Virus record (IMG/VR): IMGVR_UViG_3300008448_000004
Span: 1-64,000 of that record
Strand: one strand, 5' to 3'
From: a virus
DNA: 64,000 nt
Position numbers and translations under genes: made by a program. Under the pieces are notes generated by a model that ran no database searches, had not been told where the DNA came from, and saw only the letters and a program-made list of their open reading frames with translations. How positions within the stretch are numbered: position 1 is the first letter of the stretch; each line of letters opens with the position of its first letter. This document shows, piece after piece, positions 1 to 63,943 of this stretch.

Positions 1-2645
1 GGTGTTTGAGTTACTGTGTTTGTAGGAGTGTTAGTAGGTGTACTAGTTTGAGTGGGGGTTTGTGTTGAAGTATTAGTTGGAGTTTGTGTTGCAGTCTGTG
101 TTGCAGTTTGAGTTGGTGTAGTTGTACGGGTAGGGGTTTGAGTAGGTGTCTGTGTAGGTGTGTTAGTTGGAGTTTGAGTACTGGTAGGAGTTTGAGTATT
201 AGTTTGAGTAGGGGTGTTTGTAGGAGTCTGTGTTGAAGTTTGAGTATTAGTAGGGGTCTGTGTAGTTGTATTGGTAGGAGTATTAGTAGGGGTTTGAGTA
301 GCTGTCTGAGTAGGGGTTTGAGTACCGGTTGGTGTATTTGTAGGAGTTTGCGTAGCTGTATTTGTAGGAGTACTGGTGGGAGTGATTGTACTGGTAGAAG
401 TCTGTGTAGGAGTCTGTGTTGCAGTTTGAGTTGGAGTTACTGTTGTAGTTGGAGTTTGGGTACTCGTTTGTGTCGGTGTATTTGTAGGAGTAGCTGTACC
501 GGTCGGTGTCTGTGTTGGTGTTTGAGTTCTAGTTTGAGTAGGAGTGATCGTATTAGTAGGGGTATTCGTTGGAGTTTGAGTAGAGGTACTAGTTGGAGTT
601 TGGGTATTTGTAGGAGTCTGCGTAGCTGTCTGGGTAGGAGTCTGTGTTGGAGTGTTTGTAGGAGTCTGTGTTGATGTCTGAGTATTTGTAGGGGTGTTAG
701 TAGGGGTATTAGTTGGAGTGTTTGTAGGAGTTGTAGTAGTAGTTGGTGTGTTGGTTGGTGTATTTGTGGGAGTTTGCGTAGCGGTATTGGTAGGTGTTAT
801 AGTATTGGTAGGAGTATTAGTTGGAGTTTGTGTAGGGGTGTTAGTTGAAGTGTTTGTGGGAGTTTGAGAAGGAGTCCTAGTTTGGGTTGGTGTCTGCGTC
901 GATGTACTTGTAGGAGTTTGCGTAGCGGTATTGGTAGGAGTTATAGTACCGGTAGGAGTATTTGTAGGGGTGTTAGTAGAGGTCTGTGTTGTAGTTTGAG
1001 TAGGAGTTGTAGTGTTGGTAGGAGTATTCGTCGGTGTCTGTGTCGGTGTGTTAGTGGGAGTTATAGTATTTGTAGGAGTGTTCGTTGGTGTCTGTGTTGC
1101 GGTATTAGTAGGTGTGACTGTATTAGTAGGAGTTTGAGTGGGAGTATTAGTTGGAGTTTGTGTAGGGGTAGTGGTACGGGTGGGGGTTTGGGTGCTAGTC
1201 TGTGTTGGAGTGTTCGTAGGAGTTTGTGTAGGAGTTATGGTATTAGTAGGTGTGTTGGTTGGAGTTTGGGTAGAGGTCTGTGTTGGAGTATTTGTAGGGG
1301 TTGTGGTATTAGTAGGGGTGTTAGTAGGAGTCTGAGTACTGGTTTGAGTAGGGGTATTTGTCGGGGTATTAGTTGGAGTCTGGGTAGAGGTCTGTGTTGC
1401 GGTATTAGTTGGAGTTATAGTATTGGTAGGTGTGTTAGTAGGAGTATTGGTTGGAGTGTTTGTTGGAGTATTAGTTGATGTTGCTGTATTTGTAGGTGTC
1501 TGTGTTGCAGTTTGAGTGGGAGTTTGAGTTGGAGTTTGTGTATTAGTGGTAGTATTAGTTGGTGTATTCGTAGGAGTTTGAGTAGATGTTTGAGTAGGTG
1601 TTACGGTATTTGTAGGAGTATTTGTAGGGGTTTGTGTTGCAGTTTGCGATGGTGTAGAGGTTTGAGTAGGAGTTTGAGTTGGAGTTTGGGTATTAGTTTG
1701 TGTTGGTGTTATAGTATTTGTAGGGGTGTTAGTAGGAGTTTGAGTACTAGTTTGAGTAGGAGTTACTGTGCTAGTAGGAGTTTGTGTACTTGTACTTGTA
1801 GGAGTGTTTGTAGGTGTTGCTGTCTGGGTAGGAGTCTGTGTACTTGTATTTGTAGGGGTATTAGTAGGAGTTTGAGTATTAGTAGGTGTCTGAGTGCTGG
1901 TTTGAGTAGGAGTTTGGGTTGGTGTAGTTGTTGGAGTCTCAGTAGCGGTAGGGGTTTGGGTAGAAGTCTGTGTTGGTGTTACAGTACCAGTAGGTGTTTG
2001 GGTAGGAGTTTGTGTTACGGTAGCTGTAGGTGTTTGAGTAGGTGTCTCTGTATTTGTAGGAGTTTGAGTAGGGGTACTAGTATTTGTCCGGGTTGGAGTG
2101 GGGGTTTCTGTGTTTGTAGGGGTGTTTGTAGGTGTTTGGGTGTTAGTAGGGGTTTGTGTAGGTGTCTCTGTATTTGTAGGAGTTTGAGTAGGGGTTTGTG
2201 TAAGTCCTACGGTTGGAGTATTGGTTGAAGTAGGTGTATTTGTTGGAGTAAAAGTAGGAGTTTTGGTAGTTGTAGGTGTCGGAGTAGCAGTGCGAGTTGG
2301 TGTAGGTGTTGCTTGAGCTGTTCTTGTAACAGTTGCAGTCGGTGTTGGTGTAATTAGTGAACCGATAACGAAGGTAAAGCTACAATCTAAGCCAGGAGTA
2401 GGCGTAGGCGTAGGTGTCGGTATAACAATAGGGATCGTAAATATATCAGTACATATGCCAACTCCATCTAATATAATATTTACTGCTGTATTCGGAAGAT
2501 TATTAACAGTGTATCCTGCTACTAGTTCTGTACAAGATACATTAGATGCGAGTAAGTTCGCAGGTGTAACACTATCGTAGTATAGGTCGAAAGGCCCTGT
2601 AGACGACCCGCAACTAGTGATTTGTATTACTGCTGATACTAACAT
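1..2645 (-). CDS. Thr-Pro repeat fibre-like protein, partial (3' end outside window)
   Basis: An ATG after TATAAGGA opens a frame that stays open for 881 codons to the window edge. Residues 1-85 are non-repetitive and resemble the N-terminus of the 1136-residue protein encoded at 3644-7054 (both have IQIT near residue 8 and GPF-x-x-YYD). A short TPTPTPTP linker and a few more ordinary residues follow, then more than 700 residues in which threonine occupies every second position and proline about every fourth (TPTNTPTQ type units). Such low-complexity stalks suit an extended fibre or adhesin shaft. It is the last gene seen of the leftward structural operon, so a distal tail-fibre role is inferred. 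The C-terminal tip is not visible. The plus-strand frames across it are antisense artefacts. Confidence 0.85.
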
Positions 2646-2702
2646 TCCTTATATTGTAAATATAAATAGAATTTTTTAGGTTTTTAACTTAATTTTCACT
2701 GA

Positions 2703-3629
2703 TTAAAATTCATAGGCATTTACAGTTATAGACCCGTCACCTGTAGGATTATATGTGCCATAACTATTAACTGCGGTAGTAGGATCTGTTGCTGTATTGT
2801 TATATATAGTACTTCCGTTATCTACTACAGTTAAGCCGTTATATGCATCGTTAACCCCGTCACTTGTTGTGTAAGTATACACTGATATAGTATCTGCACC
2901 ATACGCGGTGAAATTGCCGCTACCGTTAGAAGTAAGAGTTACTACCGTATTTCCGTTCCTGCTAATTGCCATGTAAGCAGCGGTTGCAGTAGTCGTAAAG
3001 CTATAAGATATTGTAAACGATGTTGTCGGGGTAGGGGTCGGTGTTAGAGTATTAGTTGGTGTATTAGTTGGGGTGAGAGATATTGTTAAGGTAGGTGTTG
3101 GAGTAGGAGTAGGGGTTGCTAGTATGTTATTACAAGCATTTGCACCATTAGTTCCTCCTTGATCGTAAAGTGTTGTAGATAGCGGGTAAAGTCCTTTTAC
3201 GCTGTTTACCGAAGTTACTGGTGTGTTTGAATAGATGTAGTTAACATAGCAAGGGTAGGGAGTCTGCCCGGAAACAACTACACAATCTCCGTAATCTTTA
3301 TACCACCATTGGCTGTATGGTGTAAAGTTAGGATCGCTAGGAAAGTAGCCGTAAGCAACGGGTATATTTGAACCAGATTCGGTGAGTTCACCACTAGTAC
3401 AGTTTCTATACTTTGTAATTGCATAAATATCAGTACAGTCTATCCAGCTATCTATGTAACCGTTTTCTAAAACCGTAGCGCATTTTACTCCATCGGAATA
3501 CTGTCCAGCATTAACCGGTACGTACTGACTTGCTGAATAGGCATAGAGGTAGCAGCCTATGTTAAAGGTTGAACAGTTAGAGTACAGTGTCGATGAGGTA
3601 GCTTCGCAAAATCCAGGTCCAACAGCCAT
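2703..3629 (-). CDS. Tail-fibre-like protein with TPT linker (308 aa)
   Basis: A Cys- and Tyr-rich N-terminal domain (residues about 1-170) is joined by a Thr-Pro linker (about 172-205, TPTPTPTPT) to a C-terminal domain (about 206-308) predicted to be beta-rich, with many Thr, Ser, Val and Tyr residues. It lies between two much longer Thr-Pro repeat proteins and reads like the same architecture with the stalk shortened. No recognised catalytic motif. Role in adsorption is inferred from position and architecture only. Confidence 0.75.
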   Translation of the reverse strand: MAVGPGFCEATSSTLYSNCSTFNIGCYLYAYSASQYVPVNAGQYSDGVKCATVLENGYIDSWIDCTDIYAITKYRNCTSGELTESGSNIPVAYGYFPSDPNFTPYSQWWYKDYGDCVVVSGQTPYPCYVNYIYSNTPVTSVNSVKGLYPLSTTLYDQGGTNGANACNNILATPTPTPTPTLTISLTPTNTPTNTLTPTPTPTTSFTISYSFTTTATAAYMAISRNGNTVVTLTSNGSGNFTAYGADTISVYTYTTSDGVNDAYNGLTVVDNGSTIYNNTATDPTTAVNSYGTYNPTGDGSITVNAYEF

Positions 3630-3643
3630 ATCTTAAAAAATTA

Positions 3644-6600
3644 TTATTCTTCTAATGCTACAAAACATAAGTATGTACAGAAACAAGAACTCAATCCTAC
3701 ATCATAGGTTAATGTTAATGGATAGTAAGTTACAGGGTAACAGTTGTTAACATCCACGCATAAGGTACCTAATCCTGTAGTATTAACAGCTACAGCATTT
3801 CCGGTTCCACACCCTCCATCTGCTGCTGAGATATTCCCGATTGTTCCTTGTCTGATACAAGCTTTTACAGTTTCGAAAGGTCCTATTGCAATACATCCAG
3901 TATTATTCTGCCTTGTAATATATGATGCATAGACTTCAAAACTGTTAGGGTTGTAAATCTCTGTACAATCTCCTAACTCTTCCGGTGTAGGAGTGGGTGT
4001 TCTGGTAGGAGTAAGAGTTGGTGTTTGAGTTGGAGTTTCTGTATTGGTAGGTGTAATAGTGTTAGTAGGAGTTGCTGTATTAGTTGGTGTTTGAGTTGGA
4101 GTTTCTGTATTGGTGGGGGTAAGGGTATTAGTAGGAGTTATTGTACTAGTGGGAGTTACTGTGTTAGTGGGGGTTCGAGTGGGAGTATTAGTAGGAGTTT
4201 GAGTTGGGGTATTTGTAGGGGTATTGGTAGGAGTATTTGTAGGAGTATTTGTAGGGGTGTTAGTAGGGGTATTAGTTGGAGTTTGAGTAGGAGTGTTTGT
4301 AGGAGTGGTGGTTCTAGTAGGGGTTTGAGTATTAGTTTGAGTAGGTGTCTGTGTTGGTGTATTGGTTGGTGTATTTGTGGGAGTTATTGTTCTAGTTGGA
4401 GTTTGAGTGGGTGTTTGTGTTGGCGTATTGGTTGGTGTATTTGTGGGAGTAGCAGTTCTAGTAGGAGTATTAGTAGGTGTCTGTGTCGGTGTATTTGTAA
4501 TGGTCTGTGTTGGTGTCTGTGTTGCAGTAGGTGTTTGTGTTGCTCCAGAAGTCTTAGTGGGAGTTTGAGTAGCCGTATTAGTTGGGGTCTGAGTAGGAGT
4601 ATTTGTAGGAGTAGTGGTTCTGGTGGGAGTTTGGGTAGAAGTGTTTGTTGGGGTATTCGTAGGAGTACTAGTTCTAGTAGGTGTGTTAGTACTAGTTTGA
4701 GTTGGGGTATTTGTAGGAGTTTGAGTAGCTGTATTTGTTGGAGTTTGCGTCGGTGTGGTAGTAGGAGTTGTGGTTTTTGTCGGAGTATTTGTGGGAGTTT
4801 GTGTGCTGGTTTGCGTTGGAGTATTAGTGGGTGTTTGTGTTGGTGTGTTTGTAGGAGTAGCGGTTCTGGTAGAAGTGTTGGTAGGAGTTTGAGTTAAGGT
4901 GTTTGTTGGGGTGTTTGTTGCTGTCGAAGTAGGGGTTTGAGTAGCTCCTGTAGTTCTAGTAGGAGTCTGGGTTGTGGTATTAGTAGGAGTTTGTGTGGGA
5001 GTTTGAGTGTTTGTAGCTGTATTTGTTGGAGTGTTTGTAGGTGTAGTTGTTTTAGTGGGTGTCTGTGTTGAGGTTTGAGTTGGTGTTTGAGTAGGGGATA
5101 ATGTTACAGTATTGGTAGGTGTTTGGGTTGTAGTTTGTGTAGGAGTTAATGTGGGAGTATTAGTAGGGGTTTTAGTACTTGTAGCGGTTTGTGTCGGTGT
5201 CTGCGTTGGTGTCTGTGTAGGTGTTCCGGTGTTGGTTGGAGTTTGAGTAGGGGTATTAGTAGGAGTTTGAGTTGCAGTTTCGGTAGGGGTCTGTGTAGGA
5301 GTTTGAGTTGCAGTTTCAGTAGGTGTTTGTGTTGAAGTTGCAGTATTAGTTGGAGTTTGAGTAGTTGTAGGTGTGTAGGTTGGTGTAATTGTGGGAGTGG
5401 GGGTATTTGTAGGTGTGTACGTAGGTGTTGGGGTGGGGGTAGAGGTTGCTGCTAAAGAACAGTTAACCGATACCGTATACTCTCCCCCGCAAGGAGCATC
5501 TATAATTAAAGTAGCTGTTGTAGGAAATGCGGCTGTCTTACTGAACGATAAAGTGCCGGTTCCTGCTGCGATCACTGGATCTCCTGATAGGCATGTAGCG
5601 TATGCAGCACAGCTTGTATTAAAGCAATCTCCTACATAGCCACTTGTGTAAGTGTTGCCGTCCCATATTAGAGTAAACCTATCCGGTATGAAGTTTGTTA
5701 TATAGTCTATGCCTACAGTACCCGTAACTGCGCCAATATTAATTGTATACTTTGCAGTGTAAGGGGGTGCTGTTCCTTGTAAAGTATCACCGCAGTTTAG
5801 TGTTCCTATAATAGCTAGATCTGTTGGTGTAGGTGTTGATGTTCTTGTAGGTTGTGGAGTTCGTGTAGGAGTCAGTGTAGTCGTAGGTGTTGTAGTGGGT
5901 GTAGAAGTTTCTGTAGATGTTGGCGTTACTGTCCTTGTGGGTTGTGGAGTTCTCGTTTCAGTAGGTGTAACTGTGTTGGTTGGAGTCTGGGTAGGAGTTA
6001 TTGTGTTAGTTGGGGTTTGAGTAGCAGTGGTTGTGTTAGTTGGAGTTTGTGTTGGGGTTTGGGTGTTAGTTAAGGTAGGAGTTGTTGTGTTAGTTGGGGT
6101 TTGAGTAGGGGTTTCGGTACTTGTAGGAGTTTGGGTAGGGGTTTCTGTGTTAGTCGGAGTTACTGTACTGGTAGGAGTATTAGTAGGTGTTTCGGTAGGA
6201 GTTATAGTATTTGTAGGTGTATTAGTAGGTGTCCTTGTAGGTGTTACAGATATTGTAACCGTTGGCGTAGGAGTTTCGGTACTTGTAGGAGTTTGGGTAG
6301 GGGTTTCGGTACTTGTAGGAGTTTGTGTAGGAGTACTTGTAGTAGTGGGAGTGGGGGTATTACTATTAACAGGAGTTCCACTCAATGTAGGTGTAGGGGA
6401 TTCAGTCGGCTGCGGTGTTCTTGTAGATGTTGTTGTAGGAGTAGGAGTAGGTGTGTTTGGGGTTATAGTTACGGTCGGAGTATTAGTAGGTGTTATTGTG
6501 TTAGTTGGAGTCTGTGTAGGCGTCTCCGTAGAGGTGGCGGTGGGGGTGTTTGTAGTTGTAGTAGTAGGTGATGGGGTTTGAAATGGTGTTTGGGTAGGAG

Positions 6601-7054
6601 TTTGGGTAGGAGACGAGGTTGGCTCGGGAGTTCTGGTTGGAGTTTGGGTAGGGGTTTGGGTTGCTGTGATGCTGGGTGTTGGTGAGTTACTAGGAGTGAA
6701 TGTAGGTGTTGGTGAGTTACTAGGAGTGAATGTAGGTGTAGGGGAATTACTCGGTGTAATGCTAGGAGTAATAGTGTTCGTAGGAGTGATAGAAGGTGTT
6801 ATAGTGTTTGTAGGAGTAGGAGTAGGAGTTGGCTGTCCAATGCCTGGAATCGGTTCTATAACTATGTTGTTACAGCCTGGTTGTATATTTTCTAATATAA
6901 TTAGAGTTGCTGTAGAGGGTAGATTGACTATGTAAGGAAAATCTACTAAAAATATATTAGCTGCAACTTGAGTTAGGGAAGAAACAGTATCGTAATATAT
7001 GTTAAAAGGTCCTTGTGCTCCACCTCCTGTTATCTGTATTGAGTAACTTGCCAT
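3644..7054 (-). CDS. Long Thr-Pro repeat fibre protein (1136 aa)
   Basis: Order: N-terminal module (1-75) homologous to the start of the partial protein at the left window edge; Thr-Pro stalk (about 75-410); an Ig-like or beta-sandwich island with four or more cysteines (about 415-540); a second, more regular Thr-Pro stalk (about 545-1020) with T at alternate residues and Arg or Lys recurring every 18-34 residues, always at an even spacing; C-terminal Cys-rich domain (about 1030-1136). The start follows GAAAGGAAA. Mucin-like composition suggests an extended, possibly O-glycosylated fibre. The 12-bp-like repeat DNA makes length variation by slippage or recombination likely. Confidence 0.85.
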
Positions 7055-7085
7055 TTTCCTTTCAGCATTTTATATGGTGATACTC

Positions 7086-8624
7086 TTAACATCCTGTACA
7101 GTTAGTGTTAGTACAATAAGCTCCTACAGCAAAAATTTGATTTCCGTTATTTGCAGGAGATACTGATACGCTAAATATTGAATTAACTCCATTCAAGTTG
7201 TAATTTAGGTTTGTTGCAGACGTACCGCCTGTATACTGTCCTGACTGTAATGTAACAGATTGGTTGCTCAGTAATACTGGGAATCCTGAGGTTGTATTTA
7301 GGTAAGCGCTAAATGTTACAGTAACGTTTGTGTTAGGTGGATATCCTCCGATAATATCACCTACTGTCTGCAGTCTGTAGTAAACTGTAGATTGATTTGC
7401 TCCTGTATTCTCATAGTACAGACATAGTGTCATGTATAGCATATTAACAGGAGTAACGGTTGGGGTAGGAGTAGGTGTTTGTGATTTCGTAACCGTAGGA
7501 GTTGGCGTGTTGGTAGGTGTTACGGTATTGGTAGGTGTTATAGACGGTGTTAGTGTATTAGTAGGCGTTACCGAAGGAGTTGTTGGTGGTGTTGCTGTTA
7601 TAGTAGGTGTTATAGATGGTGTTAATGTGACGGTTGGGGTTGGAGTAAGTGTTGCAGGAGGCGTCATTGTCGGTGTAGGTGATGGCTGAATAGTCACTGT
7701 TCCGCCTATAATTTCACAATTAATAATACTTACTATAATAGTAGATACGTTACTAGGGGCACAAGCAGAGCTTGTAACGCTGTAATTTATCGAATATACA
7801 CCTTCTGTACTTGATAAAGGATCTGCATTGTCTAACTCTACTTGTCCTGATATTACCGTATAGTCAGGGAAAAGGTTTCCAGGTATAGGCTGTAACTGTA
7901 AACTTGCTACATCGACTGCACTACAATCAGCAGTTGTCGTTATTAGCGGCTGTATAATTTTAGGATCATCGGTGGTTAAGAAGACTTCAAATACATCAGA
8001 TGTATTAGGTCCTGAATCAAAGAGGCAGCTGTAGTCTGGATTAGTTATTACAATTAATCCCTGGGGGTATAGTATATTACCTACTAAACTTCCTGATTCT
8101 ATACATCTATAGAGGAAATCTGAATTGTACAGTATTTCATCTGTATAGTCATTTGTATTGAAGGTTCCGACTGCGCAGTCTGCAACATCTACTAGATTAC
8201 CATTTCCGTCATCTACAATTAAAAAAGCGCTAGTAGTACTTCCTAATCTAAATGTTTTAGGGTGAATTGCTTCTCCATAAATTTCTTGAGGTACAGATAC
8301 TATCTTTATACTAGAAGTAGGAAGATTCCTTATATCAGCTTGATAAGAACCAGGTACTGCTGTTGATTGTAGGCTATCGTTATAAGCAGACGCAGATGTA
8401 AAAGAAGCTGATTGAGCTGCTCTATAGAAGAGATTCCTAATAGAAGAGTAATATAATCCTTCTTCAGGGAAAGAGCCGGTTATAGATTGTGCTGTATTAA
8501 CACCTTTGAAGACTTGTATTCCTGCATCGTAGAAAGAACAGTCTGTGTACTCCAGGTAATTTAATGCCCTGTATGGAATTACAGCTAGATCTGAAATCGA
8601 TAGTGTCTTGAATGCAGAACTCAT
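7086..8624 (-). CDS. Virion protein with TPT linker (512 aa)
   Basis: The N-terminal two thirds (1-320) are a non-repetitive structural-type sequence with many Ser, Thr, Tyr and Asn. A Thr-Pro linker (about 322-400) carries TPTPTVT and SITPT units, and a C-terminal domain (about 402-512) ends in a Cys-rich tail (NTNCTGC). It is the first of four Thr-Pro proteins in transcription order and probably the one closest to the baseplate, linking baseplate proteins to the distal stalks. No family recognised. Confidence 0.75.
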
Positions 8625-42537: not shown

Positions 42538-43317
42538 TTAGTATATATCTAATGTTCTATCTGCTCTAATTTCAACCTCCCAAGGTTTGTTTACTGGGTT
42601 ATAGGCATGGTTACATATGCTTGCGTTTATGTAAGTAGTAAAGACATTCTCATCCCAGCCATGACTTTCATGTATATGTCCCGATAGGTGTAACAGAGGT
42701 GAAATACCTTCTACTTTCTTTCTAAGATCTTCACATCCTACATACTCTTGGGTAGACGGAATGTAGTCTAGTTTATAAGCAACCGGTCCATGAGTTATAA
42801 TTATGTCTGTATCTCTAGGAATCTCTTCCCAGATCTTAGCTATATCCGGACCTCGGTGAGCGTTAAACGCCCATCTATCTCCATGAAACCAGGGAGTATA
42901 TGGACTACCCCATATCTTTATCGTATTACTACCATCGCCTATTTCTATCGACGAGTTTTCCAAATAAGAAACGCCATAATCGCTAAGTTCAAAATCAGAT
43001 AGAGTATTACGAAGCCACGTTGGCTTTTTGCTATGCGATGTATCGTCCCAAAGATCGGAATCTTCATAAGTTCTAAAAAATTTTGGATCAAATGACTTAT
43101 CATGGTTGCCTGCAATAAATACAACTCCATAGGTAAATCTAGGAGCTTGTTTAATACACCATTCAAAGAAGTCCATAACCTCTCCTTTCTGTCCAACTCC
43201 GGAGAAGTCTCCTGCATGTAGTAAAACATCTCCATCAGGCAATGCATTAGGGAAGCGAGCTTTGCTTGTAAGGTGCTTATGCTGGTTGTGTGTGTCTGAT
43301 ATGCAGACTAGTTTCAT
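42538..43317 (-). CDS. Calcineurin-like metallophosphoesterase (259 aa)
   Basis: All blocks of the family: ISDTHNQH (7-14), DVLLHAGDFSG (about 30-40), FIAGNHDKSF (about 67-76), IITHGPVAY (about 172-180) and LSGHIHESHG (about 210-219). It uses two metal ions to hydrolyse phosphate esters; the substrate (nucleotides, nucleic-acid ends or cyclic nucleotides) is not evident. Four-base overlap with the 67-residue gene. Confidence 0.85.
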   Translation of the reverse strand: MKLVCISDTHNQHKHLTSKARFPNALPDGDVLLHAGDFSGVGQKGEVMDFFEWCIKQAPRFTYGVVFIAGNHDKSFDPKFFRTYEDSDLWDDTSHSKKPTWLRNTLSDFELSDYGVSYLENSSIEIGDGSNTIKIWGSPYTPWFHGDRWAFNAHRGPDIAKIWEEIPRDTDIIITHGPVAYKLDYIPSTQEYVGCEDLRKKVEGISPLLHLSGHIHESHGWDENVFTTYINASICNHAYNPVNKPWEVEIRADRTLDIY

Positions 43318-47832: not shown

Positions 47833-48495
47833 TTATTTTTCTCCTACTAAACGTTCTTCGTGGTGATCTTGAGGCAGTCTATTAGCTTGGACTGGACGGC
47901 CGGATAACATTCTAACAACATCTTCCATATCGTAAGGAGTTAGATCGTTTCCATCCATGCCTACGTCCATACTTCTACCTCCCATTTTCTTTTTAGATGA
48001 AGGCAGGTGTACGTGTCCAAATAGGTGAAACCTTCCCTTATTCATATTATGCCAACTACATAAAGGATAATGCATGAGCACAAACTCATAATTACCTTTC
48101 GGTGAGTAAACATTTAACACCAGGTATTCAAAAGTCTTTCTAAAGATACCTTGAATACCTTCGCGGTTATTCTCGATATGATGATCGTGATTCCCGTATA
48201 GAAGGAATATGTTCTGACATACAATTCGATCTCTAAATTCTTTGATTGATTCAAATCCTCCGAAAGACCAGTCCCCTAAGTGAAATAGTATATCATCCTG
48301 CCCCACTGTGTTATTGATACCGGCTACAATAGCGGCGTTCATCTTTTCGAGGTTAGCAAAGTCTCTAGTCTGAGAGATAGGAATATCTCCAGTTTGAGTT
48401 CTCCAGTCAGTTACTCCTCTACATATGTTTCTATGATTATAGTGCGTATCGGAAGTAAAGAACAGACGTTGTCCTTCTCTTAAAACCAGCTTCAT
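47833..48495 (-). CDS. Metallophosphoesterase of the RNA-repair cluster (220 aa)
   Basis: Blocks TSDTHYNHRNIC (14-25), ILFHLGDWSFGG (near 69-80), LLYGNHDHH (near 98-106), LMHYPL and LFGHVHLP. A dinuclear metal phosphoesterase. Located seven bases before the kinase and in the same order as phosphatase relative to ligase in bacterial Pnkp, it may remove 2',3'-cyclic or 3'-phosphates. That role is inference; the fold is clear. Confidence 0.85.
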   Translation of the reverse strand: MKLVLREGQRLFFTSDTHYNHRNICRGVTDWRTQTGDIPISQTRDFANLEKMNAAIVAGINNTVGQDDILFHLGDWSFGGFESIKEFRDRIVCQNIFLLYGNHDHHIENNREGIQGIFRKTFEYLVLNVYSPKGNYEFVLMHYPLCSWHNMNKGRFHLFGHVHLPSSKKKMGGRSMDVGMDGNDLTPYDMEDVVRMLSGRPVQANRLPQDHHEERLVGEK

Positions 48496-50543: not shown

Positions 50544-51140
50544 TTAATCCCACCACCTCTCACTTCTCTCTTCCATGATCTTCCAGAGTAGCTTATTACT
50601 TCTCTGCTGGTTGAAACTAGCTACATAGTAAGATAAGGTTTGTTTTCCTTGCAAGCCACTAAAATCTTTTCCTGAGTATTTCTTCTTTACTCTTTTAACC
50701 GATCCTGGATACTTTGCTAAGTAGGCATCTAAGTTTTCTGATTTAGTTTCAAACGCTAGCTCAGTTACTTCCGGATTACCTTCGGCAGGTATAAATTTCA
50801 TATCTATATCCTGATAATCATGATGTTCTGTGCCGTAATATTCTTCGTGCTTACGTTCAATTAAATTTAGTACCCATGTCATATCTCTATTATCTCGTTC
50901 TATATCCATATGACGGTTATGGTGTACGAGATATGCTCTCTGATACTCTATCTTCTTTTGGAGTAGTTTTGTTATAAAGTAATCATCCCAGTCTTTATCC
51001 TTGTAGATGGTTGGGATCCACCTAATGATATTTTTTACACCATCCCAGAAGTTATTGAACCAGTAAGGAGTGTACCTTCTCCAAGTTCTTCTACCCCATG
51101 CTGAATCTTGCGGAAGTATCAGCTTTTTGTATTGTGTCAT
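50544..51140 (-). CDS. Conserved phage hypothetical protein (198 aa)
   Basis: MTQYKKLILPQDSAWGRRTWRR, then a Trp-rich IIRWIPTIYKDKDWDDYF stretch and a late SYYVASFNQQRS: a phage protein pattern of unknown function. Overlaps the end of the glucosaminidase gene by 50 bases. Confidence 0.65.
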   Translation of the reverse strand: MTQYKKLILPQDSAWGRRTWRRYTPYWFNNFWDGVKNIIRWIPTIYKDKDWDDYFITKLLQKKIEYQRAYLVHHNRHMDIERDNRDMTWVLNLIERKHEEYYGTEHHDYQDIDMKFIPAEGNPEVTELAFETKSENLDAYLAKYPGSVKRVKKKYSGKDFSGLQGKQTLSYYVASFNQQRSNKLLWKIMEERSERWWD

Positions 51141-51597
51141 TTGTAACTGGTTTTAATATAATGTACTTATGTTTCTTGATAATGCTTTTAAGCTTTACAG
51201 TATAGTTTTTACCTTCAGAGTATGTTCTGTCTAACATTGACATATACTGTGTTCTTGTATACTCTTTTTTAGAGAACATATAATCTTGATAGAGCTTATA
51301 ATCATACACCGATTGAACCCAGTCTGTGTATTTGGCATACCCTTTACTTCCTTTCGTAGCTACAGTTTCTCGAAGCCTGGGTAGCTTCATACCGAATAGG
51401 TTATTGTTGTTTATGCAATTAGCGCTTTTAAAATGTCCTGTCTCTAGAACAGCTTGTGCAAATACTAAATCAGGATACTTTATATCCATCTGATTAATTA
51501 CTCGCCATAGGTTCTCTTTGGTTAGGAGCTTTCCTTCTCCGGGAAGGGCAAAGCTGAAGAATAGGACTCCAGCAAGTACCAGTAGTACTTTTTTCAT
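51091..51597 (-). CDS. Secreted glucosaminidase-type peptidoglycan hydrolase (168 aa)
   Basis: Signal peptide (MKKVLLVLAGVLFFSFALPG) and a glucosaminidase-fold core with DLVFAQAVLETGHF (Glu 52 as acid), NNNNLFGMKLP and WVQSVYDYKLYQDYM. It would cleave murein glycan strands in the periplasm, in addition to the GH19 endolysin. Confidence 0.8.
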   Translation of the reverse strand: MKKVLLVLAGVLFFSFALPGEGKLLTKENLWRVINQMDIKYPDLVFAQAVLETGHFKSANCINNNNLFGMKLPRLRETVATKGSKGYAKYTDWVQSVYDYKLYQDYMFSKKEYTRTQYMSMLDRTYSEGKNYTVKLKSIIKKHKYIILKPVTNDTIQKADTSARFSMG

Positions 51598-51945: not shown

Positions 51946-52545
51946 TTACGCTAAGTAAGAATAGTACTCTTTAAAATGCTTAATTCGATCCGGAAGGCCG
52001 ATTGTACCTCCGTTTACTTTTTTGGTAACTGCTGTTACGACTGCATCGGTAGCTCCTTTATCTGCATCTAGATTTATCTTTCTACTATTCCAATACCATG
52101 CTGCAGAAAGGAGAGGGTACTTTGTTGATACTAAGTCCGGATTCTCGAGGATATTTTCTGTAACAATAACGTCAAAGGCTTTATAGTTATCTTTACCAGT
52201 AAGCTGAATATAACCACGACCACGATACTTCCAACCTTCACCAGATGCTTTATCACCATTTCCCATGCGAGACGCATAAACAATGTTAGCAATCTTCTCA
52301 GGCTTACGCTCATATAATTTAGCAGTTGCTTCATCGGGGAAGTATTTTTTGAAGGTAGTCAATAATCCTTTTGCTCCGTAGTTTAAATTTTCGTTAACTA
52401 CTTTGAAGCCTCCTGATTCATGTCCACATTGAGCTAGGAAATGGGCTAAACGTAGCGGGGTATTGATCTGAAACTTCGATATTGTGTCTGGTATTTGAGC
52501 TAAAACAGCTTCAGGTACGTGACCTTTTAGTTTATCTAAATTCAT
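51946..52545 (-). CDS. GH19 chitinase-fold endolysin (199 aa)
   Basis: Catalytic pair in LAHFLAQCGHESGGF (Glu 43) and NENLNYGAKGL (Glu 52), then GEGWKYRGRGYIQLTGKDNY, the GH19 signature of phage endolysins. No signal peptide, so release depends on the holin. Cleaves the glycan backbone of peptidoglycan. Overlaps the lipoprotein gene by four bases. Confidence 0.93.
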   Translation of the reverse strand: MNLDKLKGHVPEAVLAQIPDTISKFQINTPLRLAHFLAQCGHESGGFKVVNENLNYGAKGLLTTFKKYFPDEATAKLYERKPEKIANIVYASRMGNGDKASGEGWKYRGRGYIQLTGKDNYKAFDVIVTENILENPDLVSTKYPLLSAAWYWNSRKINLDADKGATDAVVTAVTKKVNGGTIGLPDRIKHFKEYYSYLA

Positions 52546-53843: not shown

Positions 53844-53876
53844 AAAAAAAGGCTACATATATTCCTATATGTAACC
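53844..53876 (-). terminator. Strong rho-independent terminator
   Basis: On the minus strand an 11-bp stem (GGTTACATATA / TATATGTAGCC) with a GGAA loop is followed by TTTTTTT. It ends the receptor/lipoprotein unit before the lysis genes. Confidence 0.9.
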
Positions 53877-53921
53877 TACCTTTTACATTTATAAATAGTA
53901 AGGTACTGTTAAAAATAAAGC

Positions 53922-55109
53922 TTACTGTCCTTTTATAGGGAATCTAGTCCATCCATTAATCCAAGTAGGCATAGCAATCTCCGGAATCGTTATGCTAATC
54001 TCTTTATTTCCTTGAGTTAATGCTTTTACTTTTACGTCATCTGAAGTAATAACTGAAGACTTGCTTATAAAGTTTAAACTGGGTATAAAAGATCCTACCG
54101 AGTTATCTTCGAATTTAGACGTACCATCTTTATAAAAGGTAGCAGTCTCATTTGATTCTAAACTGAATCCTCCTTTCATATAGCCGAAGAATGTTGAGTT
54201 GGTAACAGTAAATTGTGTAGCTCTTCTGAATCTTAGAGCTAGGTTATGGTTAGTCAAAGCATCAGCGACGTTAGGGCCAATTAAAACTAACCCTATCAGC
54301 TTTGGATGAGTGAATGGTTGAGCTGTAGAGCCTACACCGTCGTTATCACACTCAACTCCGTTACCGGCATCTCCGTTATCTACAAACTGCGGATCACGTT
54401 TTGCTATACTATTACTAACAGTTCCAGTATAACCGAAATCAAAATCGTAATCATCATCTGCTGTAGCAAATGCATATAAATTTTTAGGCGATACAGTACC
54501 GCCGAAGAATTCAAATGCATCGTCGTTAGCGTAAACTGTTTGCACGTATTCAATTATAGTGCCTGAACCTACGGCGCCTAAAGTAAGTGCGTTAATTTCA
54601 GAGTTAGGTAAAGCAGCAATGCCGGCATATTCGATACGAACATACTTCAGTATACCGCTATTGTCGCTATCATCGGTACCTCCGTAAGGACGTCCCACGC
54701 CTCCTTCAATAGTTGGTTCAGATGAACGATTAGTTTTAGCTTTACCCAAAATAATAATACCGCCCCAGTCACCAGGAGATCTCTCGCCGGCGATTTTACC
54801 TGAAGTGAATATGATTGGCTTTTGAGCAGTTCCTTCAGCTAGTATCTTTGCTCCTCTTTCGATACACAAAGCACCTTTTTCTGCAATATCACTTTTGATT
54901 ACAGTACCTGGTTGGATGATAAGAGTAGCACCTTCTTTAACATAAACGTACCCTTTTAATGTCCATTCCTTATCTGATGTTAAAGTTGTGGTTGTTGTAA
55001 TATTACCTGTTATAATTTTGTCTATAGGTACATTGATTGGTTCATCCACAGGACTCTTTTTACATGCAAATAGACCGATAAGTACTAACAGCGATACTAG
55101 CTTTTTCAT
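53922..55109 (-). CDS. Bacteroidetes-type surface lipoprotein, receptor partner (395 aa)
   Basis: Signal peptide and lipobox (GLFAC, Cys 16) and then a repeated right-handed beta-helix-like body: KGYVYVKEGATLIIQPGTVIK, GALCIERGAKILAEGTAQKPIIFTSG, GDWGGIIILGKA, EYAGIAALPNSEINALTLGAVG. Proteins of this type in Bacteroidetes sit beside TonB-dependent receptors. It overlaps the receptor stop by four bases (ATGA), so they are made together. Ligand unknown. Confidence 0.75.
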   Translation of the reverse strand: MKKLVSLLVLIGLFACKKSPVDEPINVPIDKIITGNITTTTTLTSDKEWTLKGYVYVKEGATLIIQPGTVIKSDIAEKGALCIERGAKILAEGTAQKPIIFTSGKIAGERSPGDWGGIIILGKAKTNRSSEPTIEGGVGRPYGGTDDSDNSGILKYVRIEYAGIAALPNSEINALTLGAVGSGTIIEYVQTVYANDDAFEFFGGTVSPKNLYAFATADDDYDFDFGYTGTVSNSIAKRDPQFVDNGDAGNGVECDNDGVGSTAQPFTHPKLIGLVLIGPNVADALTNHNLALRFRRATQFTVTNSTFFGYMKGGFSLESNETATFYKDGTSKFEDNSVGSFIPSLNFISKSSVITSDDVKVKALTQGNKEISITIPEIAMPTWINGWTRFPIKGQ

Positions 55110-57361
55110 AAATTAAAGTTTAATGATAGTGAAATTGTTTGTTCGTTATTTGTTTTAATTAGATCACCTCTTGATTTTTGATAGTAGATAGACGGTTGGG
55201 CTAGTATATCGCTTATCGCTAACTTAATCTCACCTTTACCTGCTTTACGTAGATAAACTACATCAACCACATCTCTTGAATTTTCAAAGATGTCTGAGTA
55301 GCCTTGAAAGCCTACAGCAGATATTCTATCTCCAGTTCTATTATAGGATACATTAAAAGTATTCTTATTCTTATGTATATTGACTCCGCTATTAACTACA
55401 TAATCAGATTGACCTTGTAACCTTCTCTTAAGTCCGGTACCGGTAACCTGAGAATGTATTAGGGAACTATTCGTATAGATTTCTAACCACTTGGTAACAT
55501 TCTTTCTCACTTCTACTTCTATACCTACTGTTACTGCTTTCTTGGGATTAGAAAATGTTAATAGTAGGTTAGAAGGTACAGAACCATCTGCTACAATCTG
55601 TTCAATAGGGTTAGTGAATTGTTTACCGAATAAACTAACAGATATATTCTCTCCAGCTTTAGGATAGTATTCCCATTTCAAGTCCAAGTTATAGATGTCT
55701 GTCTTTTTAAGATTAGGATTACCGAGCAGCTGAGCATTTCTTACAAAGTCGTAGTAGGCAAAGTTAGCTACCTCTCTAAATTCAGGACGTGCTAAAGTCT
55801 TTGAAGCTGAGAAGCGATACTTCACTTTATCTAAACTATAGGATAGGTTAATAGAAGGTAGTATATCTAGGTATACTCTATTGACGTTAAGTCTCTGTCC
55901 AGAAAAGTCTGCAGTATATAAATCAAATATATTATATTCACTTCTAAGACCTCCGGATACTTTTAATTTTTTAAATTGATTATCATATTGAATGAAGCTG
56001 CTTCCTAAAAAGAAATTAGCGGTATACCTGTCTGTATTATTTGTTATTTCCTCTAATAAGTCTTCTCTCTGGTATCTAAATATTCTTGCTTTAAAAGCTC
56101 TACCTCTTTGTAGGTAGTTTGCACCTACTTTAAAGTTACTCAACTCTTTAGATAAACCTAAGTTGAAACTCTCTTCGTTCATATCAGACCAAAACCTGTA
56201 TGTATCCCTCCACGCTACAGTGTATAGATCTTCTGTACCTAAAGATCTGACTTTAGGAGTTACTCTATAATCAGGCTGATCTCTTACCATAAGATTGAAT
56301 CCTGCTTGAGCATCCCAGGACTTTATTTTTGCTTCTATCTGTGAATTTAAAAATGTCTTGATAATATTATTTGTAGAAGTAGTACTAACTTGCTGTACGT
56401 TGTCGTAGTTTAGTCCTGATCTTGTTAGGTAAGATCTATCTATCTGTCTGTTGAAATTGGTCTTGAATGTATACTTGTTCTCTCCAAGGTAGGTTAGGTT
56501 TAAGAAACTATTTAAAAGAGAGGTGTTGGTGTAGACAGTATCTTTGTACTTGTACGCTAATTCAGAGCTTGATTGGTAATCTAACCTATCAATATAATTT
56601 AAAGTATAGTTGTTTCTAAAAGACGTATTAAACAATATTCCAAGTTTACCTCTTTTATTTCCTACTGTAAAGCTGCTATTAAGGTTAGGAAAGGATGTAA
56701 ACTTCTTTACGGGTGGAGTTTTTATAAGAGACGTGTACTGCTCTTTTTGAACATTGTTAGATACTCTATAAAGGTAAGTACTAGGAAACGTGGAGGGGAA
56801 CACCGCTTGGTGTACTAATTTAAAATCTCTCGCGGTTGAAATCGTCCCCCATCCACTTCCTATTCCTGCTGAAATAAAGTTACTTGTAACCTCTTTTAGG
56901 TTAACTTGAATTATGCCACCTGCAAAATCTCCCGGTAAGTTTGGGCTTGCTGATTTTAATACAATAATATTATCTATAAGTCCTGTAGGTATGATATCAA
57001 AAGAGAAAGCTCTTCTATCAGGCTCGGTAGAAGGTAGTACCGTTCTTCCTATCATTGCAACATTATACCTATCCGATAGACCTCTGACTAGTACATATTT
57101 ATCAGACTGTATCGTTACTCCGCTAACTCTCTTAAGAGCATCACTAACAACTCTGTCAGGTGTTCTTTTTAAAGCTTCAACAGAAACTCCATCCGAGATA
57201 GAAATATTGTTCCTAACTGTTGATATAACAGCTGAAATGTTTTCTTTCTTTGCGGAAGAACGAACTACTATTTTCGAAAGAGTCTGGTTAAATAAAGTGT
57301 CTTGTGAAAAACTAACTTGTGTTATGAAGAGACAAGCAGTAAGAAAAAGCCTAGCAACCAT
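55106..57361 (-). CDS. TonB-dependent outer-membrane receptor (751 aa)
   Basis: Signal peptide (MVARLFLTACLFITQVSFS, 1-19), a short linker and a plug domain (about 45-160: VSDALKRVSGVTIQSDKYVLV, RGLSDRYNVAMIGRTVLPS, LPGDFAGGIIQVNLKEV), then a 22-strand-type barrel to a C-terminal SLSLNFNL strand with final Phe. It lacks the CarboxypepD_reg-like domain usual for Bacteroidetes receptors. It would import a large ligand across the outer membrane. A hairpin covers its start. A full-length, intact receptor in a phage is unusual. Confidence 0.88.
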   Translation of the reverse strand: MVARLFLTACLFITQVSFSQDTLFNQTLSKIVVRSSAKKENISAVISTVRNNISISDGVSVEALKRTPDRVVSDALKRVSGVTIQSDKYVLVRGLSDRYNVAMIGRTVLPSTEPDRRAFSFDIIPTGLIDNIIVLKSASPNLPGDFAGGIIQVNLKEVTSNFISAGIGSGWGTISTARDFKLVHQAVFPSTFPSTYLYRVSNNVQKEQYTSLIKTPPVKKFTSFPNLNSSFTVGNKRGKLGILFNTSFRNNYTLNYIDRLDYQSSSELAYKYKDTVYTNTSLLNSFLNLTYLGENKYTFKTNFNRQIDRSYLTRSGLNYDNVQQVSTTSTNNIIKTFLNSQIEAKIKSWDAQAGFNLMVRDQPDYRVTPKVRSLGTEDLYTVAWRDTYRFWSDMNEESFNLGLSKELSNFKVGANYLQRGRAFKARIFRYQREDLLEEITNNTDRYTANFFLGSSFIQYDNQFKKLKVSGGLRSEYNIFDLYTADFSGQRLNVNRVYLDILPSINLSYSLDKVKYRFSASKTLARPEFREVANFAYYDFVRNAQLLGNPNLKKTDIYNLDLKWEYYPKAGENISVSLFGKQFTNPIEQIVADGSVPSNLLLTFSNPKKAVTVGIEVEVRKNVTKWLEIYTNSSLIHSQVTGTGLKRRLQGQSDYVVNSGVNIHKNKNTFNVSYNRTGDRISAVGFQGYSDIFENSRDVVDVVYLRKAGKGEIKLAISDILAQPSIYYQKSRGDLIKTNNEQTISLSLNFNL

Positions 57362-57393
57362 ATGAGAGATTAAGTTTAATTAGTACTCTCATA
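57361..57393 (-). promoter_or_regulatory. Start-codon hairpin of receptor gene
   Basis: TATGAGAG and CTCTCATA form a perfect 8-bp stem with a 17-nt loop. The 3' arm ends with the A of the receptor AUG and the 5' arm contains an upstream ATG that opens a 13-codon frame overlapping the receptor start. Could set translation of the receptor or bind a dimeric regulator. Confidence 0.55.
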
Positions 57394-57441
57394 CCTAGTT
57401 GAAAAGCTTACTCTAACCTCAATTCTAGTATTAAGTATATA

Positions 57442-57789
57442 TTAAGATTCGCTCTCAGAATCCTGATCAGCTATTTGCTGCTTACCTTTTTCGGTTAAGA
57501 ATAACCACTCTACTCCTTCAGCATCTTCAACACTATCGGCATAACCTCTATCAACGAGAGAGTTAACAATCGACTCAGCTAACGATCGCATTATTAGATC
57601 TTGAGCTTCTTCTTCTTCCCATACTAGTTCTGCTCCATTAGTCCATTTTGTAAATAAGGACTCTGCTAGAACTCTCTCCAGTATGTCTCGATTAATCTCT
57701 TCTTCTTCCTGCCAGGACTCTACAATTATGCCTGCGGCTTGTTGAGCGACTTTCTTTACCTCTTCTGGGTAATGTTCTGCTGAAATCAT
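57442..57789 (-). CDS. Acidic phage protein (115 aa)
   Basis: Start MISAEHYPEEVKKVAQQ is chosen because the longer frame would run into the 3' half of the tmRNA. Acidic helical body (ESWQEEEEINRDILERVL) with EGVEWLFLTEKGKQ near the end. Unknown; first gene after tmRNA in the direction of transcription. Confidence 0.65.
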   Translation of the reverse strand: MISAEHYPEEVKKVAQQAAGIIVESWQEEEEINRDILERVLAESLFTKWTNGAELVWEEEEAQDLIMRSLAESIVNSLVDRGYADSVEDAEGVEWLFLTEKGKQQIADQDSESES

Positions 57790-57804
57790 AACGTATGTTT
57801 TAAA

Positions 57805-58242
57805 TGGTGGAGATGACGGGAGTCGAACCCGTGTCTCCGAAAGAGACAATAACACCAACGTTTCACATGCTTAGTACTGCTTTCGGGCCCGTATGCTAAA
57901 CTTAGGCTAGCTGGGTCTGTCTACTGCACCGTAAGGGCTGACCGGTTATGGTCGAATCCACCACCTTGTTTTAATTGACTACAAGGAAAACTACGGCTCG
58001 CAATATGCGTCCGGATGCCGTCTCTATAGCGTACGACTCGCTGTTGTGTTCTGTTCCTAGGCTCTCTACCGCCCGATGCGGACTAGGCTGCTACAGCGTA
58101 GTCGGCGCCTACGAAAGACATTAAGTCTTCGAAGGTCATAGTTGACATTTCGTCATTTGTTGTTTAGTATCTTCTAAGGCAGTATACTCAAATGCCTGCA
58201 TGTGGTATTACCTCAACATTCGGATCAATACCAAACATCCCC
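57805..58242 (-). ncRNA. ssrA: tmRNA (transfer-messenger RNA)
   Basis: The 3' end carries a T-arm and acceptor strand CGGGTTCGACTCCCGTCATC ending ...CTCCACCA, which pairs with 5' GGGGATG (GGGGATGTTTGGTATTGATC). After a pseudoknot (S1 AGGCA/TGCCT at 58193-58197 and 58177-58181; S2 AGTAT/ATACT at 58184-58188 and 58166-58170) a reading frame ends ADYAVAA-TAG at 58083. E. coli tmRNA starts its tag 90 nt from the 5' end; here that point lies near 58154, giving a tag of about 22-25 residues ending GADYAVAA, instead of the usual 8-12. It rescues stalled ribosomes and marks the product for proteolysis. Confidence 0.92.
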
Positions 58243-63013: not shown

Positions 63014-63943
63014 TTATACAACCTGTTTCGTGATCAAATATTCGTATGTATGTTTAACTGCAGCTTCAAACGGTGTTAGTTTGAAATTAGGGAATACTTG
63101 TTTTAATTTTTCGTTACTAGCATCTTTTCTGTACTGCCCATCTAAATCTCCGGAGTATCTAATTTCAAAATGTTCTAATCCTAAAGCTTTTAACGTAGCT
63201 AATGTTAGTTCGTTTATAGATAAAACTTCCGAGGGGCATACGTTAAGGTTAGTATAGGTGTTAGTCTCTATCATCTCTACTATTAGCCTAGCTAAATCTT
63301 TTGCATACATAAACTGTCTAAGAGGCTTACCTGTTCCTAGTAATTCAATATAAGACCTGCCTTCTTTTTGAGCAACTATAATTTTTTTCAACAAAGCGCT
63401 TACAAAATGACTTCCTTTATCGTCGTACTTATCGTATTCGCCGAAAAGGTTACACGGTGTAAGGTAGCAGTAATTACTGTTGTTATTCGTAGCATTGATT
63501 ACATCTACGTGGACTCCCATAACCCTCTTTGCATATCCGTATCCGTAGTTGGTAGGAGTCGGAGGTCCGAAATGTAGATCTTCTTCTTTCATAGGGTATT
63601 GAAACTCTTCTATACGGTCAAAGTTATCCGGGAATACACAAGTACTGAGAGCTGTGATAAAATTGTTTACTTTAAATTCTCGACAAGCTCTGACAATGTT
63701 AAAGTTCATCATTAAGTTATCTTCGAAATAAACCAGCGGTCTTTCAATATTATCTCGAATACCTCCCACTACTGCAGCTAAGTGTATTACAATTTCCGGC
63801 TTGTACGACTGTACGTAGCTGTAAGTATGAGAAGGATTTAATAAATTAAGCTGATGTGAGGAGGGGTAATCTGCTTGTGGGAGTAGTTCTCTTAAGTACT
63901 TACCTACCATACCACTTCCGCCTGTAACTAGTATTCTTTTCAT
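63014..63943 (-). CDS. fcl: GDP-L-fucose synthase (309 aa)
   Basis: An extended SDR: GGSGMVGKYL (8-17), STCVFP (Ser/Cys catalytic pair), YGYGYAKRVMG (Tyr-Lys dyad) and SHF with the conserved His. These are the residues of GDP-4-keto-6-deoxymannose epimerase/reductase. Makes GDP-L-fucose from the GMD product; no GMD gene is visible in the window. Overlaps the glycosyltransferase start. Confidence 0.9.
   Translation of the reverse strand: MKRILVTGGSGMVGKYLRELLPQADYPSSHQLNLLNPSHTYSYVQSYKPEIVIHLAAVVGGIRDNIERPLVYFEDNLMMNFNIVRACREFKVNNFITALSTCVFPDNFDRIEEFQYPMKEEDLHFGPPTPTNYGYGYAKRVMGVHVDVINATNNNSNYCYLTPCNLFGEYDKYDDKGSHFVSALLKKIIVAQKEGRSYIELLGTGKPLRQFMYAKDLARLIVEMIETNTYTNLNVCPSEVLSINELTLATLKALGLEHFEIRYSGDLDGQYRKDASNEKLKQVFPNFKLTPFEAAVKHTYEYLITKQVV

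Follow-up and report, generated by a model that had tools for sequence, protein, structure and literature searches.

A TonB-dependent receptor and its beta-helix lipoprotein in T4-like phages: a probable Pho-regulon phosphorus-uptake module captured from Bacteroidota

TonB-dependent receptors often serve phages as entry points, and an apparently complete one among a phage's own genes raises the question of what it is carried for. We addressed this question in the first 64 kb (64,000 nucleotides [nt]; hereafter, the window) of the 180,934-bp virus record IMGVR_UViG_3300008448_000004, where a gene for a TonB-dependent receptor runs directly into a gene for a beta-helix lipoprotein. The record belongs to a T4-like phage, with PHROG matches to the T4-like terminase, portal, major head protein, and tail sheath, and its hosts are predicted to be Bacteroidota bacteria. 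We propose, with a probability of roughly 0.77, that the pair is a Pho-regulon outer-membrane phosphorus-uptake module, captured from a host and under the control of host PhoB; it would probably help the infected cell to gather phosphorus when this is scarce. The function is narrowed to phosphorus because of the gene context of the pair in hosts, the published induction of a homologous pair upon depletion of inorganic phosphate (Pi), and a repeat found before the phage receptor.

Both genes lie on the minus strand and are intact. The receptor (751 aa, 55106..57361) contains a plug domain (PF07715, residues 57-148; 56918..57193) and a barrel match to OMP_b-brl_3 (PF14905, residues 398-747; 55121..56170); the NCBIfam model TIGR01782 matches it partially, below cut-off. 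Right after the signal peptide, the stretch LSKIVVR (57260..57280, minus strand) aligns with L-x-E-V-x-V-like stretches of relatives and is a candidate TonB box. The AlphaFold model is a barrel with a mean predicted local distance difference test score (pLDDT) of 72, the plug part being of low confidence. Its best fold matches in the PDB are TonB-dependent transporters (E about 1e-20), including Bacteroides XusA-XusB (9gbc) and a B12 transporter with its lipoprotein (8bmx).

The lipoprotein (395 aa, 53922..55109, minus strand) is modeled by AlphaFold as a confident beta-helix (pLDDT 85), and its fold neighbors in the PDB are right-handed beta-helices, general and weak matches of which none falls below E 0.01. 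Its sequence gave no meaningful match to solved PDB structures and none to Pfam, PHROG, or NCBIfam. Across 25 phage homologues, the lipobox cysteine Cys16 (55062..55064, minus strand) and the motifs DDAFEFFGG and DDDxDFDFG are invariant. Cys16 is followed by a lysine and acidic residues, which we take to resemble the Bacteroidota surface-export signal. The stop codon of the receptor and the start codon of the lipoprotein overlap by 4 nt (ATGA, 55106..55109, minus strand), making translational coupling probable, and an intrinsic terminator hairpin followed by T7 closes the pair (53850..53877, minus strand; -17.2 kcal/mol, z -6.5). Thus, the open reading frames, Pfam, and AlphaFold agree with the initial annotation, which had described an intact receptor overlapping such a lipoprotein, with a terminator of its own; of the families it proposed to search for, the plug was matched as named, the barrel was matched as PF14905, and the lipoprotein fell into no family.

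Is the pair a genuine part of phage genomes? Two scans of IMG/VR for the lipoprotein recovered it from 61 further contigs in 56 metagenomes (counted by record name), which together with this record hold 43 different full-length sequences. The receptor is directly upstream in 57 of the 61 contigs and is cut off by the contig end in the other 4; where both genes are present, the 4-nt overlap recurs in 52 of 57, and a 2-nt gap replaces it in 4. Conservation in related phages, which had been suggested as a check, therefore extends to dozens of contigs. Of the 50 records searched, 16 in addition to LR745206 gave a strong match to at least one T4-type hallmark (terminase, major head protein, or tail sheath), many of the records being short fragments. 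The genes flanking the pair match phage genes of this record, yet they vary among lysis, tail-fiber, and nucleotide-metabolism regions, which points either to movement of the module or to rearrangement of the surrounding genome. In both genes, synonymous change far exceeds non-synonymous change, with a ratio of non-synonymous to synonymous rates of 0.03-0.25, indicating purifying selection. Since intact homologous pairs occur in dozens of independent phage contigs, host contamination, a chimera, or misassembly, the first of which the initial annotation had named as a potential refutation, is ruled out.

We then asked where the pair came from. In a scan of bacterial genomes, it was found in Chitinophagaceae, Sphingobacteriaceae, and relatives, with the two genes nearly always neighbors; within one bacterial class, 199 of the 247 genomes sampled have a match to the lipoprotein family. 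The host proteins measure about 935 aa (receptor) and 455 aa (lipoprotein), usually with a real gap between the genes (about 4-291 nt). In quick maximum-likelihood trees with 43 phage lipoprotein and 37 phage receptor rows, the phage lipoproteins form one clade (Shimodaira-Hasegawa-like approximate likelihood ratio test [SH-aLRT] 95), as do the phage receptors (SH-aLRT 100), and both clades lie inside host Chitinophagaceae, which are their nearest kin. These trees support capture of the pair from a Chitinophagaceae-type bacterium by a T4-like phage lineage that then kept it, in line with the host gene capture initially put forward, and the contexts of the sister hosts (loci L074, L078, and L084) point to descent from bacterial Pho-linked copies. 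Being host-derived, intact, and in genuine phage genomes, the genes have the traits of auxiliary metabolic genes. As had been noted, the window receptor has no Pfam match to the N-terminal CarboxypepD_reg domain (PF13715). This domain is present in host receptors and in a large minority of phage receptors (the long ones, e.g., that of contig L019), and phage forms with and without it are intermingled. Since its state switched at least five times on the receptor tree, its absence does not mark a special family, as had been surmised; PF13715 is a trait of the host form that is not required for membership in the Pho-regulon pair.

The gene context in hosts points to phosphate. In Chitinophagaceae, the pair adjoins the transporter PiT (PF01384), a DUF47/PhoU_div protein, and a PhoB/PhoR-like regulator pair. 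PiT lies within 10 kb of the pair in 24 of 80 host loci, and PiT with DUF47 lies just upstream in 3 of the 7 nearest host relatives (L074, L078, and L084). This context is partly a single arrangement inherited by descent. In other, more distant Bacteroidia (L163, L164, and L169), the pair adjoins PhoB in a different arrangement, with the regulator pair back to back with the receptor-lipoprotein pair in L163 and L164. Four further host families beside the pair (c8, c10, c12, and c14) have no Pfam or NCBIfam match; c8 and c12, at L084, L094, L108, and other loci, are predicted envelope proteins.

Published work on Flavobacterium johnsoniae describes a pair of the same plan, i.e., Fjoh_0545, a receptor with plug, CarboxypepD_reg, and OMP_b-brl_3 domains, and Fjoh_0546, lipoprotein FII with a pectin-lyase-type fold (PMC8115612). 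Both belong to the PUSIV/phoBR operon, are strongly induced by Pi depletion, by about 8 and 10 units (as tabulated), also rise in the proteome under that condition, and do not respond to N or Fe limitation (PMC8115612). The domain set of Fjoh_0545 is that of the host receptors and the long phage receptors, and the window pair is likewise PUSIV-like, with a plug/OMP_b-brl_3 receptor directly before a beta-helix lipoprotein.

A motif scan also revealed a Pho-box-like direct repeat, TTAATA-tatac-TTAATA, of 11-bp period, 84 nt before the receptor ATG (57429..57445, minus strand). It is the sole 12/12 match on either strand of the 180,934-bp genome, against an expectation of 0.27 perfect repeats per 64 kb; one-mismatch repeats within the window are at chance level, and only the perfect copy was used for this phage. 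For non-redundant receptors, we scored TTAAYA-N5-TTAAYA at 11 or more of 12 positions within 130 nt upstream. The repeat precedes 22 of 37 phage receptors vs. 18 of 789 other phage genes (Fisher p 8e-23), counts that include related, non-independent phages, and it appeared in at most 3 of 37 shuffled upstream regions. Strong enrichment was confined to the 5-nt spacer among the spacings tested as a control, and the phage repeats cluster 59-88 nt before the receptor start. Host receptors carry it in 44 of 72 cases, compared to 85 of 1,040 other host genes, and it is enriched before two neighboring host families, one of them a metallophosphoesterase; family c12 has it in 10 of 16 cases. In contigs L014, L016, L018, and L052, the repeat stands instead before the gene heading the receptor's operon, the homologue of which in the window's phage has neither a receptor behind it nor a repeat. 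A Pho-type regulator of Riemerella, also a member of the Bacteroidota, binds a motif whose most conserved part is TTTAACA (PMC9603813); this motif was all that our search of the mainly open-access literature for a published Pho box of the phylum returned. From the sequence and the Riemerella motif, we infer that the phage receptor has an upstream Pho box, as expected of a gene controlled by PhoB. In two contigs, the gene that follows the lipoprotein (L038, 11259-11975; L047, 2136-2855) has a strong Pho-box-like repeat of its own, and additional phage genes may thus be under Pho control. Apart from the receptor, a single gene of the record has an 11/12 repeat upstream, and it is in the structural region (135892-136575, minus strand).

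Several observations weigh against the phosphorus-uptake proposal. About 15 of the 37 phage receptors have no strong repeat directly upstream, and the repeat score was derived by eye from the same sequences, which makes the phage counts partly circular; more independent support comes from the spacing control, the host receptors, and the Riemerella motif, yet the outside support from that motif is partial (PMC9603813). Some host copies are located away from phosphate genes, and the host regulators match PhoB models best but below curated cut-offs. The link to Fjoh_0545/0546 is through domains and gene order. In Caulobacter crescentus, where the receptor CC0171 is paired with the lipoprotein ElpS (CC0170) and ElpS is made under phosphate starvation, CC0171 is expressed constitutively and deletion of elpS left phosphatase activity undiminished (PMC2996285). 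Disabling mutations in close relatives, also named at the outset as a potential refutation, were found in a single case against dozens of intact copies: in the 182,846-bp contig L052 (7850-10004), the receptor is frameshifted near codon 580, reflecting either an assembly error or decay, and that of the similar short contig L016 is intact.

How might such a module work? PhoB binding, expression, surface exposure, the ligand, and the benefit to the phage are all putative in the following scheme. The phage would enter a phosphate-starved cell, in which active host PhoB would bind the repeat and drive the receptor-lipoprotein operon. The receptor barrel would then be inserted into the outer membrane, powered by host TonB, and the beta-helix lipoprotein beside it on the cell surface would aid the capture or release of a phosphorus compound. 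In this way, the import of phosphorus for phage DNA could continue while host gene expression falls. The auxiliary metabolic option among the initial suggestions is therefore supported, with its unspecified feeding of the host replaced by phosphorus supply.

Alternatively, the pair might take part in the phosphate-starvation response for sensing or for activating secreted phosphatases rather than for uptake, which we regard as improbable. Overexpression of ElpS, itself no phosphatase, did raise extracellular alkaline phosphatase activity, but activity was not lowered when elpS was deleted (PMC2996285). The TonB-box-like stretch and the plug also favor transport.

Less probable still, and about equally so, are two explanations that leave phosphate aside. 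The receptor could displace or mimic a host receptor and so bar other phages, colicin-like toxins, or sister phages, i.e., superinfection exclusion, which was also among the initial suggestions. Receptors of this type are common phage entry points, and the phage has many glycan-modifying genes (e.g., the epimerase at 63014-63943), but the co-conservation of the lipoprotein, the Pho-box-like repeat, and the phosphate context in hosts would then be left unexplained. The pair could also import another nutrient, such as the carbohydrate proposed for the SusC-like receptor of the megaphages Mar_Mega_1 and LR745206 (PMC9723777). A receptor with a surface lipoprotein does share the SusCD plan, and beta-helix proteins often bind glycans. 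However, searches of Pfam and NCBIfam found neither a SusC family match for the phage receptor nor a SusD-family partner, the host copies lie beside phosphate genes, and the homologous pair answers Pi depletion and not N or Fe limitation. Finally, a functionless recent capture or misassembled host DNA, which the rarity of such genes in annotated phages might suggest (5 of 50,697 records match the receptor), is refuted for practical purposes by the dozens of independent contigs, the single clade, purifying selection, and the conserved overlap.

As initially annotated, the pair lies between the transfer-messenger RNA (tmRNA) and the lysis genes. The tmRNA (57805-58242, minus strand; Rfam RF00023, 65 bits) is upstream and was missed by ARAGORN, which reported no tRNA or tmRNA; an open reading frame at 57442-57858 overlaps its end solely via a far-upstream TTG start. 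Two endolysin-type genes (51091-51597 and 51946-52545) are downstream. A scan for Sigma-70-type promoters gave matches at chance level only. The phage also encodes two calcineurin-like metallophosphoesterases (42538-43317 and 47833-48495, both minus strand), which may have to do with phosphorus use, although neither is preceded by a Pho box. Runs of sugar-nucleotide enzyme and glycosyltransferase-like genes, in the 61997-75000 region and at 160678-171393 of the record, suggest that the phage makes glycans or modifies surfaces. GC skew is extreme at the window start (1-8000), reaching 0.78 per 2 kb, and the far end of the record (173724-180934) encodes repetitive Thr/Pro-rich tail-type proteins.

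Phage production is limited by phosphorus, for which the solution known from phages is the pstS/phoA set of cyanophages; in the literature searched, we found no described phage phosphorus-uptake genes for Bacteroidota. If our proposal is true, the pair is an auxiliary metabolic module at the cell surface, suggesting that phages redirect Bacteroidota phosphorus uptake. It also offers a testable Pho box for Bacteroidota and a lead to the function of a widespread, uncharacterized Pho lipoprotein family. The only phage TonB receptors in the literature searched were the putative carbohydrate importers of the two megaphages, and carbohydrate import by such receptors is called into question.

How does the pair compare with known systems? 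It shares with SusCD, BtuB-BtuG, and XusA-XusB the combination of a TonB-dependent barrel and a surface lipoprotein, but its lipoprotein is a beta-helix, unlike SusD, BtuG, and XusB. The closest likeness is in Fjoh_0545/0546 of the Pho regulon, whose receptor (plug, OMP_b-brl_3) adjoins a beta-helix-type lipoprotein (PMC8115612), and the L163/L164 order, with a regulator pair beside receptor and lipoprotein, is the one suggested by the F. johnsoniae locus numbers. In contrast, the window pair is phage-borne, with a shorter receptor lacking PF13715, a 4-nt overlap, and no adjacent regulator. Going by its description, Caulobacter CC0171/ElpS is a similar receptor-lipoprotein pair with a lipoprotein made under phosphate starvation, and the published ElpS family has Bacteroides members, but it belongs to another phylum and is chromosomal, beside type II secretion genes (PMC2996285).

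Among phages, LR745206 (LR745206.1, 18404-22244) also has a TonB-dependent receptor adjacent to the same kind of lipoprotein. Unlike in the window, the lipoprotein comes first, and the pair is distant and outside the phage clade, with no good Pho box found close by; it looks like a separate acquisition. Its "SusC" receptor, accompanied by the same lipoprotein kind, may also be a phosphorus system if our proposal is true. We lean, with some reserve, toward a broader picture in which, after one ancient capture, T4-like Bacteroidota phages maintained and spread a complete PhoB-controlled phosphorus importer, which would suggest a like role for the LR745206 receptor. The cyanophage pstS/phoA genes provide the nearest parallel, being host-derived phosphorus-acquisition genes of T4-like phages under a host Pho box and PhoBR (PMC10976474). 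Cyanophage pstS, however, encodes the periplasmic binding protein of an ATP-binding cassette (ABC) transporter in Cyanobacteria, whereas here an outer-membrane TonB receptor and its lipoprotein are carried by phages of Bacteroidota. Behind the same host regulator, phages here seem to have enlisted a different host phylum, membrane, and transport principle (TonB).

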